Assembly: GCA_029250665.1 (NCBI GenBank)
Contig: JAQXEV010000008.1
Span: 1-43,001 of the forward strand
Origin: Candidatus Thalassarchaeaceae archaeon
GTDB lineage: Archaea > Thermoplasmatota > Poseidoniia > Poseidoniales > Thalassarchaeaceae
Length of the DNA: 43,001 nt
Direction of reading: 5' to 3'
The first letter of the stretch is position 1. The number at the start of each line of letters is the position of its first letter. Made by a program: the position numbers and the translations under genes. Below, one piece after another: positions 20,592 to 24,201 of this stretch. A model generated the notes under the pieces. That model did not search any database and had not been told where the DNA came from. It saw nothing but the letters and a program-made list of their open reading frames with translations.

Positions 20592-22193
20592 ATGGCTAAA
20601 CACAGGGCGGGCGACCGGCGAATCATCAGTATTAGCATACCAGAAGACCTCGCAAAGAAGCTCGATAGGCGAGTAGGAAAGGGTCGTGGCCAGGGTAGGT
20701 CTGCGACGATTGCAAAAATGATTCAGAACAACCTCGAGACCGAGCAAACCGCGCCAATGACGCAACGAGCAAGCGAGTCCAGAGCAGCCTCGGGAGCAAT
20801 CGGGACTGTCCGTCTGGAAAAGGACACAATGGGCGAACTTGAAGTCCCAGCAGACCGCTATTTCGGAGCCCAAACCGCCCGCTCCCTGATTAATTTCGAC
20901 ATCGGAACCGATACCATGGATCCCTCAATAATCCGAGCCTTTGGTATTCTCAAACAGGCGTCTGCAGAAGTCAATGTTGACCTCGGGCAACTTGACCCAC
21001 AGATTGGAGCCCTCATATCATCCGCCTGCGACGAGGTAATCTCAGGAGCGTTAGACGATCATTTCCCACTGAGAGTCTGGCAAACCGGTTCGGGAACACA
21101 GACCAATATGAACTCCAACGAGGTCATTGCCAACAGAGCCATTGAGATGGCCGGCGGCGAACTCGGGAGCAAGTCGCCAGTCCACCCAAACGACCACGTC
21201 AATCGTGGCCAATCAAGCAATGATACATTCCCGACCGCGATGCACATCGCAGCTGCAGAAGAAATCCACAACCGACTCCTGCCAGCAATTCGCCTTCTGC
21301 ACAACGCGCTGGCGGCCAAAGCCGCCGAATTCGAGAACATCGTCAAGATCGGTCGCACCCATCTGATGGATGCCGTTCCGCTTACCCTCGGTCAGGAATT
21401 CAGTGGCTACACCTCGATGCTCGCTGCCGACCTCCGTCGCATAGAGGCTGCTTGGGATGATCTCCTCGAACTCGCACTAGGCGGAACTGCGGTTGGCACC
21501 GGTCTCAACACTCATTTTGAATTCGCAGACAAGGTCGCCGAACGCATCGCCGAGAAGATTGGATTACCATTCGTTTCGGCTGAAAATAAATTTGCCCAAC
21601 TCGCGGCACACGATGCAATAGTAGCCGCATCAGGCTCACTAAACACGCTCGCTGCGAGCCTGATGAAGATTGCCAATGACATCCGATGGATGGGTTCTGG
21701 ACCCCGCTGCGGATTCGGAGAATTGTCCCTTCCTGCCAACGAACCAGGGTCGAGTATCATGCCTGGCAAGGTCAATCCAACACAAGCCGAAGCCATGACG
21801 ATGGTCTGTTGTCAAGTGATTGGGAATCACACTGCAATCAGCATCGGCGGCAGCCAAGGCAACTTCGAACTCAACGTCTACAAGCCGATGATGATCTACA
21901 ATTTCCTCCACAGCACACGTCTCCTATCCGACGCATGCAGGGCATTTACTGACAAGTGCGTTAACGGACTTGAGGCCAACGAAGGTGTGATTGCATCGCA
22001 CCTCGAGAATAGTTTGATGTTAGTTACGGCGTTGAACAATCACATCGGTTACGACAACGCTGCAAAGATTGCTAAGCACGCGCATCTCAATGGTACTACT
22101 CTGCGTGAAGCAGCTCTCGAATTGGGCTTAGTCACCAATGATCAATTCGATCAATGGGTCAAACCCAGGGAAATGATTGGCCCGAAGCAGTGA
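20592..22193 (+). CDS. fumC: Class II fumarase with N-terminal ribbon-helix-helix domain
   Basis: Interconverts fumarate and malate in the TCA cycle. Residues from about 73 on are a full-length Fum[39 protein letters not shown], the catalytic-loop signature [15 protein letters not shown] (about 387-401) and [15 protein letters not shown]. The unusual part is residues 1-50: [41 protein letters not shown], a CopG/NikR-like ribbon-helix-helix (beta strand IISISIP, then two helices). A Ser/Ala-rich linker of ~20 residues joins them with no stop codon. An internal ATG at 20757, just before the linker, could give fumarase alone, but no ribosome-binding site is seen there. Normal FumC proteins begin at about residue 70 of this one. 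Confidence 0.92.
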
Positions 22194-22224: not shown

Positions 22225-22269
22225 AATGTGAGATTCGGCTTGCGCTCGGACCGTCCGAAACTGAGGTTA

Positions 22270-22288
22270 GCGGAGCGAATCGCTCCGC
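22270..22288. terminator. Nine-bp hairpin at the 3' side of the candidate RNA
   Basis: Perfect inverted repeat GCGGAGCGA-A-TCGCTCCGC, effectively a 7-bp GC-rich stem with a 5-nt loop. It is placed where the minus-strand candidate RNA would end and also lies between the convergent fumarase gene and that RNA. It could serve as a terminator for either or both. Confidence 0.45.
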
Positions 22289-22620
22289 AATGATTGATAA
22301 TCTGATGGAATGGGCCGCATCCGTACTTTTGGTACAAGGTGGGAGCAGCAGGGGTTCTGCACATGGGGGAGCATCCCCCCCGCTGACTCCGCAGGGTCCG
22401 GTTCGTCCCCGGCCCGAAGGCCGGTTTCTCCCCGGGTAGATGACTCGAGCGCTCCAAGGAGCTCTTCTGTCGTTTCCGCTTCCACCGGGATCGCTCCCCG
22501 TTTCTGCGTTTCCACTTCCCTCCCCGGCTCTCGCCGGTTCGTTCGTTGGAATGAGTGCCGGTCCTCCACGCGTCTCCGCGCTCTTGTTCCCGCCACGTTT
22601 CTCTCCGGTTTCTTTTCCCC

Positions 22621-22868
22621 TTCCTTGCGTCCAGTTCTTTTCCACCTTTGTTCCCCGTGGATCCGCCTCAGGTTCGTTTCGCCTTCCTTTCGTCCGGTTC
22701 TCTCCCCCTTCGCCGATGCACTCGCGGTCTGGTTGGCTGGCACGGTTGCGTTTTCCTCGCTTGCGCGTTGCGGTTGTGTTTTCCCCAGCTTTCCCCTCTG
22801 CTTCCTTCCCCTTTCTTGAGGTCAGTTCCCTTTCCTTGCGTCCAGTTCACTTTCCTTTCGTCCAGTTT
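22621..22868 (-). repeat. Four 17-nt direct repeats in the purine-rich core
   Basis: Copies at 22621-22637, 22684-22700, 22832-22848 and 22852-22868. On the minus strand they read (G/A)AAC(T/C)GGACG(C/A)AAGGAA, and the variable C/A base alternates between copies. Start-to-start spacings are 63, 148 and 20 bp, so the copies do not keep a reading frame; this argues against a repeated peptide. Spacing is too irregular and the unit too short for a CRISPR array. Confidence 0.6.
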
Positions 22869-23053
22869 TCTCCACTTCGGTTCGACCGCATCTCCCCTGA
22901 CCCAAGTGCCAGGTTCGATCGTCCCCGGATCCCTTGCGGTTTCCGGTTCTACCACCCCGAGTTCGGGGTTCGGTTCTGTGGCCCGCGGGTCGCGCCGGAG
23001 CGCGCCCCACACCACTCTCCCAGAGCGGCAACTTAGGTCTGTGCGGCAGTGGT

Positions 23054-23067
23054 GCATAAACCTTTCG
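23054..23067 (-). promoter_or_regulatory. BRE/TATA-like promoter of the candidate RNA
   Basis: On the minus strand the sequence CGAAAGG-TTTATGC matches an archaeal BRE followed by a TATA box. A start about 25 bp downstream falls near 23034. No protein start codon with a plausible ORF follows, which fits an RNA gene. Confidence 0.45.
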
Positions 23068-23085: not shown

Positions 23086-23121
23086 ACTGGAAATAGGGGT
23101 CTATGGGTGTTAATTTCCAGT
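23086..23121. terminator. Inverted repeat after the beta-propeller gene
   Basis: Perfect 9-bp arms ACTGGAAAT / ATTTCCAGT with an 18-nt spacer, 19 bp after the minus-strand stop codon at 23140 and just upstream of the candidate RNA promoter. It probably separates the two transcripts, or may be a protein-binding site for the RNA promoter. Confidence 0.4.
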
Positions 23122-23139: not shown

Positions 23140-24201
23140 TCACCTGTTTCTTAACATCCTGAGGCGTGCTCTTAACTCCGAATTCCGGAAGTCTTCTGGA
23201 GTTGTTTCTTCATTGTCTGATAATCTACGGCCGACGACCTCGGATTCAATGAGGTAGACTCTTCCGAGGTCATCACCGAGCACCAGGGTGTTTTCCGAGG
23301 AATGCATCTGACGTACGCGGGCATCGATAGAGATCGTTCCAAATTGTAGAATCGTCATAGTAGGAGCGGAGCCGTTCCATGACGATGCCCACGCTGTAGG
23401 GCCGAGACTCGCAACCGCATCGATTGAGCCTGGTGCTGTCACCGTTGACTCAGAAGTTGCGATACTTCCATCATCGTGACCGGAAACCCATCCTGAATCA
23501 CTAGATGCCAAAGCGGTCACTAAGGATTCAATGGGGTTTTCACTGGATTCAACCGAACCAACTGAGCTAATCGTACCATCTGCATGCCCAAACAGGAAGC
23601 GACCGGACGAACCACAAGCCCCACAAGTCACTGGGCTCTCATTATCGAGTTCGAAATGCTCGGGCTTCTGTCCAGGTCCAATTCTCAAATAGCCACAACG
23701 AGGCCGGCCCAATCCAAGCAGAATACCTCCATCTGCGTGTAGGCCGACATGCCAAGGTCTCTCGGCGAAGACCCAGCGTTCCTGTTCATCACCACCAGCA
23801 TCGAATCGCCAAACGGTCGCTTCGACAAAATCTGCAACCTCCAATTCGTAGACTGATGAAGTCGCCCAGACAACCCCATCCAAAGCCTGGACGTAATCAC
23901 TGGCTCCTTCCAACTCGCGGCTCCACAGCAATTCACCGCCAGCCGCGTCGACCGAGTGTAGCGAAGCCGACGCGGTCGCATAGACGCGATCACCATCGAG
24001 CGCAAGATCCGACACAGGTCCATCGACCTGCAATCGCCAGCGCTCGCTTCCACTCACAGCATCGAAGCAAAGCAGCAAGCCATCGTGCGAGCCAGCGAGT
24101 AGCATATCACCAACGAGCCGGACTGCCGAGCAAGCGCTACCTAAGTCACGCACGAACGACGCAAGTCCCTCCAACGAGCGCTCAGACACGACCACGCTCA
24201 C
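23140..24201 (-). CDS. PQQ/WD40-like beta-propeller protein
   Basis: Protein of 353 residues made of repeated four-strand blades of the PQQ-like type, for example AVRLVGDMLLAGSHDGLLLCFDAVSGSERWRLQVDGPVSDLALDGDRVYATASASLHSVDAAGGELLWSREL, then FLFGHADGTISSVGS, GWVSGHDDGSIATSES and TLVLGDDLGRVYLIES. About six or seven blades can be counted. There is no signal peptide or membrane helix, so a cytosolic scaffold role is likely. The C-terminus is basic (LRARLRMLRNR). The start codon is GTG at 24201; an 11-bp palindrome (CCTAG-A-CTAGG, 24223-24233) lies upstream. It is on the same strand as the candidate RNA, 100 bp upstream of it. Partner and function are unknown. Confidence 0.7.
   Translation of the reverse strand: MSVVVSERSLEGLASFVRDLGSACSAVRLVGDMLLAGSHDGLLLCFDAVSGSERWRLQVDGPVSDLALDGDRVYATASASLHSVDAAGGELLWSRELEGASDYVQALDGVVWATSSVYELEVADFVEATVWRFDAGGDEQERWVFAERPWHVGLHADGGILLGLGRPRCGYLRIGPGQKPEHFELDNESPVTCGACGSSGRFLFGHADGTISSVGSVESSENPIESLVTALASSDSGWVSGHDDGSIATSESTVTAPGSIDAVASLGPTAWASSWNGSAPTMTILQFGTISIDARVRQMHSSENTLVLGDDLGRVYLIESEVVGRRLSDNEETTPEDFRNSELRARLRMLRNR

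Follow-up and report, generated by a model that had tools for sequence, protein, structure and literature searches.

A previously undescribed structured RNA of about 700 nt at one chromosomal position across much of the order Poseidoniales

The window (the whole 43,001-nt stretch of DNA that was analysed, contig C38 of a 1.48-Mb archaeal genome) carries on its minus strand what comparison with related sequences identifies as a previously undescribed structured RNA of about 700 nt, representing a new family found at a constant chromosomal position in much of the order Poseidoniales. That a structured RNA gene exists here can be regarded as nearly certain. Named relatives at the same locus belong to Candidatus Thalassarchaeaceae (Marine Group IIb, MGIIb, order Poseidoniales), with single-cell genomes among them. 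The carriers are abundant marine archaea without, to our knowledge, a cultured member. Beyond the RNAs of the ribosome, RNase P and SRP there are very few large structured RNAs, and we know of no other of this size in archaea. An abundant group of marine planktonic archaea carries a large RNA of unknown job, the ends and helices of which are now defined.

The window alone could not decide the matter, since the single-sequence folding energy was ordinary on both strands, being no better than that of dinucleotide shuffles (z = -0.97 sense, -1.25 antisense). A structure alignment was made of 76 distinct full-length copies (646 columns kept), and the consensus structure was taken from the ribosum-scored whole alignment; a plain fold of the alignment of the 5' domain differed and was weaker. 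Covariation was assessed with a self-written test after R-scape, a G-test with average-product correction, against a null of alignments evolved on the FastTree tree with as many changes in each column as were observed. Covariation beyond this phylogenetic null was found for 32 of the 152 predicted pairs, and the seven highest-scoring of all 206,403 column pairs were, without exception, predicted pairs. Identical fold-and-test steps gave 0–1 significant pairs in six tree-simulated alignments and 0–3 in four column-shuffled ones. Structure and test share one alignment, so the exact counts are provisional; the controls were processed alike. The 3' hairpin, followed across the order, was 96.3% paired, with 8 of its 17 pairs changed on both sides, compared to 45–57% paired when the hairpin was slid by 1–3 columns as a control. 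The first-pass annotation had proposed a large new structured RNA on this strand, to be abandoned if the gap were not conserved in related genomes or if compensatory changes were absent. The proposal is borne out on both counts, as BLAST and covariance models recovered the gap in relatives and compensatory changes are present in the 76-copy alignment as well as in the order-wide hairpin. Large size and conserved, covarying secondary structure together satisfy one criterion of a large ornate trans-acting non-coding RNA. The fixed locus and the strong covariation indicate that selection keeps some specific function.

The strand cannot be read from covariation alone, as the antisense alignment also showed 26 significantly covarying pairs. 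The minus strand was instead assigned from the folding energy, the balance of G-U and A-C cells, the loops and the promoter. The RNAalifold consensus energy was -262.6 kcal/mol on the minus strand compared to -219.4 on the plus strand, and at Watson-Crick pairs 334 G-U cells stood against 176 A-C cells. There were 453 instances of four-base GNRA or UNCG loops in minus-strand orientation and none in plus-strand orientation; the strand-specific tetraloops noted at first reading are real. The archaeal BRE/TATA promoter described there was likewise recovered, with GAAAGGTTTAT at 23067-23057 on the minus strand. Among 104 distinct upstream sequences, 102 have the first T of TTTA precisely 29 nt ahead of the RNA's 5' core, TTGCCGCUCC, even though the spacer diverges, and this distance places the start of the window RNA at approximately 23031. 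Transcript data are lacking, but we consider it highly probable that the RNA has its own promoter. The interrupted palindrome upstream of it is recognisable in the sister family and has one further match in its own genome (G000:C72:2866-2892); it is a candidate activator site, or a candidate terminator of the upstream gene.

Table 1. Features of the RNA locus in window coordinates
Feature	Position	Strand	Remarks
Class II fumarase gene fumC	20592..22193	+	Downstream convergent neighbour; Pfam Lyase_1 and FumaraseC_C
Non-coding RNA, 694 nt	22338..23031	-	5' end ~23031, 3' end ~22338; conserved in 76 distinct full-length relatives
RNA boundaries			Start of 5' core set by TATA spacing; 3' end CTCCCACC conserved
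3' terminal hairpin GGAG-stem-CUCC, then CACC	22338..22393	-	16 bp, 96% paired
3' domain helix CCCGG/CCGG and UUCG hairpin	22398..22435	-	4 significant pairs; pair types GC/CG/UG/AU
Hairpin preceding 3' domain	22442..22471	-	2 significant pairs
GNRA (GCGA) hairpin and outer helix	22480..22508	-	3 significant pairs
GNRA (GAGA) hairpin and outer helix	22513..22548	-	3 significant pairs
GNRA (GAGA) hairpin GCGCG-GAGA-CGCGU and outer helix	22559..22592	-	4 significant pairs; inner stem 100% paired
Central repeat unit 4	22622..22634	-	
Central repeat unit 3	22685..22697	-	
Central repeat unit 2	22833..22845	-	
Central repeat unit 1, CUGGACGAAAGGA	22853..22865	-	GNRA mini-hairpin, GGA/GAA internal loop
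5' domain hairpin, CUUG loop	22891..22918	-	5 significant pairs, two stacked helices; loop UGUG in most relatives
5' domain GNRA (GCAA) hairpin	22925..22946	-	2 significant pairs, 96% paired
5' domain hairpin CCGAACCCC/GGGGUGG	22951..22974	-	Predicted helix, 83% paired
Second 5' helix, UNCG cap (UCCG here)	22985..23010	-	Conserved CCGCGGGCCACA strand; 2 significantly covarying pairs
5' terminal hairpin CCGCUCU-ggg-AGAGUGG	23011..23029	-	98% of cells paired; recognisable in both families
Archaeal BRE/TATA promoter CGAAAGGTTTATG	23055..23067	-	First T of TTTA at 23060
Interrupted palindrome TGGAAAT-N18-ATTTCC	23089..23119	.	Upstream of promoter; conserved in family alignment
PQQ/BamB-like beta-propeller protein, 353 aa	23140..24201	-	Upstream neighbour; Pfam PQQ_2 E=1e-15

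The conserved RNA is bounded as given in Table 1, which leaves the large minus-strand RNA of the first-pass annotation standing and corrects its 3' end from 22265 to 22338. The 9-bp hairpin once taken as its terminus (22270-22288) falls outside the RNA and is not kept in most relatives. The same positions, between the RNA and fumC, hold a perfect 8-bp palindrome, GCGGAGCG-aat-CGCTCCGC, which only near relatives keep and which is perhaps a terminator between the convergent genes. The 5' domain comprises a terminal hairpin (CCGCUCC/GGAGUGG), a UNCG-capped helix, the conserved strand CGCGGGCCACA and further hairpins, and contains many invariant unpaired nucleotides; throughout the relatives the 3' end is closed by a GCGGAG-stem-CUCCCA hairpin. 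The tetraloops of the window copy are UCCG, GCAA, CUUG, GAAA, GCAA, GAGA, GAGA, GCGA and UUCG. The purine-rich middle had been credited with little pairing potential, a view that has to be given up, as short hairpins with GNRA caps and internal loops of purines occur in it. Their motif, CY-GGA-C-GNRA-G-GAA-GG, is present in most of the 76 relatives, four times in the window copy and 0–6 times in others. It consists of a GNRA loop closed by a single pair and, next to it, a 3x3 internal loop of purines that is inferred to form tandem sheared G-A pairs. Members of two genera (g15 and g17) carry middle hairpins with UUCG loops instead, and in another (g3) a stretch of ~330 nt including the 3' hairpin is tandemly duplicated, with a self-match of 92–96% at an offset of 330–336 and two matches to the 3'-hairpin model in most genomes. 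Across the copies, the conserved 5' and 3' domains enclose an array of hairpins with GNRA or UUCG caps that has been elastic in evolution. The RNA measures about 1.25 kb at the g3 loci L082, L084, L086, L087, L089 and L096.

Relatives of the RNA, about 540–1300 nt long, were found in all 11 sampled genera of Ca. Thalassarchaeaceae and in three sister-family genera. BLAST with the gap sequence matched 53 of 97 relatives at a cut-off of E <= 0.1, a few of these being short chance matches; identity was about 76–82% over ~840 nt within the window's genus, while fragments at 66–87% identity were obtained from six other genera of the family (g5, g6, g8, g9, g10 and g11). R2, a covariance model built on the 5' domain, detected about 95 genomes with E-values from 1e-37 to 1e-16, and matched g3, g4, g7 and the sister family weakly. 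Most of these weakly matching loci also carry the 3' domain on the same strand, with a total span of 0.4–1.25 kb, and nearly all share the neighbouring genes (propeller homologue at ~30% identity, fumC at ~76%). Inspection of the fumC side revealed the RNA in g2, g4, g7, g15 and g17, and the covariance model of the 3' hairpin (R3) added g22 and most g15 genomes. In divergent genera both ends of the RNA co-occur on one strand in unchanged synteny. Binning artefacts are not the cause, since single-cell genomes (AG-... records) also yield copies. Two copies per MAG were seen in two cases (L005/L039 in G010; C34 and C42 in G044), and these probably reflect two strains rather than a true duplication, since the bins carry about 3% contamination.

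Outside Poseidoniales, no R3 match was obtained in a 390-genome sample of the phylum, and bacterial matches to the 5' DNA pattern (L104, L119 and L170) were dismissed as chance, the profile finding no 5' domain in them. A viral or phage origin found no support, as neither viral contigs (searched with the 5' pattern) nor phage records gave a match. Six genera of the sister family (g12, g13, g14, g16, g18 and g19) likewise showed no R3 match under filters strict enough that very divergent copies could have escaped. Missing from several genera, the RNA is therefore not essential to the order. It appears from these comparisons to be inherited vertically at one locus, and the simplest history that we can infer is presence in the ancestor of the order followed by loss in some Poseidoniaceae.

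None of the known RNA families accounts for the gap. Rfam gave no match in it at either gathering or permissive thresholds, and a cmscan search of the window and seven divergent relatives with all 4227 families, OLE, GOLLD and ROOL among them, matched none; H19_3, Six3os1_3 and eiav_FSE appeared by chance only. The Rfam check proposed at the outset thus produced no real match. ARAGORN found no tRNA or tmRNA in the window. RNase P-like words had been noticed in the gap and set aside, rightly, as they are coincidental: the RNase P model has no match there and the genome's own copy lies at G000:C90:7057-7348, with a full score of 242 bits. Similarly, the Archaea_SRP model is unmatched in the gap, and the genome's full-scoring SRP RNA is at C11:34486-34798. 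The prophage or phage context characteristic of GOLLD and ROOL is not met by this syntenic chromosomal locus without viral-contig or phage matches. No structured RNA of Poseidoniales or Marine Group II was found in openly available papers, subscription papers not being covered. The RNA is, as far as these models can tell, unrelated to any described family, and its working mode may resemble that of the bacterial ornate RNAs.

We consider it probable that this non-coding RNA, large, structured and stable, has a BRE/TATA promoter of its own from which it is transcribed, and that it works in trans, providing the RNA core of an RNP or an RNA-only particle; transcription, partners and biochemical activity have not been shown. 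If the RNA gene and its promoter are both accepted, there is good reason to favour a trans-acting scaffold or RNP, in the absence of transcript or functional data. What the sequences themselves establish is the gene, its strand, the promoter-to-start spacing, vertical inheritance, the conserved ends and the elastic tetraloop-hairpin middle. A scaffold role fits this architecture, in which an elastic series of similar hairpins lies between conserved ends, and it would be reminiscent of OLE, GOLLD and ROOL, RNAs without homology to this one. The 5' domain together with the 3' hairpin would form the functional core, probably bringing the ends together, and the array of GNRA/UUCG hairpins would provide a docking or packing surface through tetraloop contacts, proteins or self-assembly. 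Each hairpin could serve as a docking knob for a protein, an RNA receptor or another copy of the RNA, and such a role would explain why unit number and total length can vary.

The locus is syntenic, with a single place for the RNA between the beta-propeller gene and fumC. Of the 77 named loci, 67 include the fumarase gene, and most others are truncated close to the RNA. The fumarase itself seems to be fused at its start (20592-20740, plus strand) to a ribbon-helix-helix (CopG-type) DNA-binding domain, which would be odd for a fumarase; the match to Pfam RHH_1 (residues 12-40, E=7e-4) is just below the cut-off, and in the relatives L082 and L086 the match reaches into this stretch.

The beta-propeller gene adjoins the RNA in 71 of the 77 named loci, the remainder being mostly contig ends. 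This near-constant adjacency in the same orientation, with a median of 111 nt from the end of the gene to the start of the RNA, leaves room for reading the RNA as a long structured 3' UTR, a cis element controlling stability or termination of the propeller mRNA. So do two g7 loci (L091 and L092) that keep the propeller gene while the far side of the RNA, as far as it was examined, carries a different gene. We nevertheless find this reading unlikely, because the TATA element is fixed at 29 nt and conserved where the remaining spacer is not, which points to independent initiation, and because several sister-family (f2) genera hold the propeller gene without the RNA; in g13 and g16 (L187 and L195) it directly abuts fumC. 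Size and complexity, moreover, go well beyond known archaeal 3' UTR elements. The same persistence of the gene where the RNA is absent weakens the propeller protein as an obligate partner, and a partnership of the two remains possible, though unsupported. The propeller protein has a basic amphipathic tail (LRARLRMLRNR) at its end, and LRxLR-like endings occur in relatives, those from genera without the RNA included.

A ribozyme, or an RNA enzyme with a substrate not yet seen, would fit the size, the many invariant unpaired nucleotides of the 5' domain and a tetraloop-rich packing like that of large ribozymes. It seems rather improbable, however, as no catalytic RNA family was matched, no conserved catalytic motif was recognised and the middle tolerates large insertions and deletions. 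Regulation of fumC by antisense or convergent transcription reading into its 3' end was considered because the two genes converge and lie 27–107 nt apart in most loci. We hold this to be very unlikely: selection keeps base-paired structure and not complementarity, the conserved RNA stops short of fumC, and the sequence beyond the RNA in L091 and L092 carries an S15 peptidase homologue, with no fumC in what was examined.

The gap had been called gene-free, and no conserved protein was indeed found between fumC and the ORF at 23140-24201. Its seven ORFs have no Pfam match, and each of the five tested remained free of stop codons across >=80% of its length in at most 4 of the 76 relatives; the long plus-strand ORFs arise because the pyrimidine-rich strand has few stop codons. 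Neither an element acting at the level of DNA (an origin, a recombination site or a chromatin site) nor a degenerate protein gene can seriously be entertained. Purine/pyrimidine strand asymmetry (AT skew -0.68 in 22401-22800) and repeats would speak for such a reading, but base-pair changes that compensate each other, tolerance of G-U pairs and tetraloops confined to one strand are signatures of RNA, and no reading frame is conserved, the RNA lengths being spread over all three frames.

Among known systems, the archaeal RNase P and SRP RNAs are likewise large structured RNAs with many stable loops, but the Poseidoniales RNA matches neither model and both are encoded elsewhere in the genome. 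OLE RNA (ornate, large, extremophilic) of Gram-positive bacteria is about 600 nt long and has an intricate conserved secondary structure and a function that is not settled (PMC9723947). Large size, such a structure and an unsettled function are common to both RNAs. The Poseidoniales RNA differs in being archaeal, in showing no sequence or covariance-model match to OLE, and in its independent promoter and position between the propeller gene and fumC, with no OapA or OapC genes seen adjoining. GOLLD and ROOL are bacterial and phage RNAs that form RNA-only nanocages. They assemble into homo-oligomers through kissing loops and A-minor contacts, and homo-oligomers are formed by OLE as well (PMC12286853). 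Like GOLLD and ROOL, the Poseidoniales RNA is large and ornate with variable parts, and its many tetraloops could imitate their contacts, whereas it shares no homology with them and is vertically inherited at a single chromosomal locus without phage or viral copies. A tentative suggestion, which we would not yet favour, is that the giant ornate RNAs have here their first counterpart in archaea, one chromosomally fixed, using its tetraloop-hairpin array to build a multimeric RNA particle or a dedicated RNP, and with a modular middle lengthened or shortened by duplication of hairpin units or, in one genus, of a ~330-nt module bringing a second 3' hairpin.
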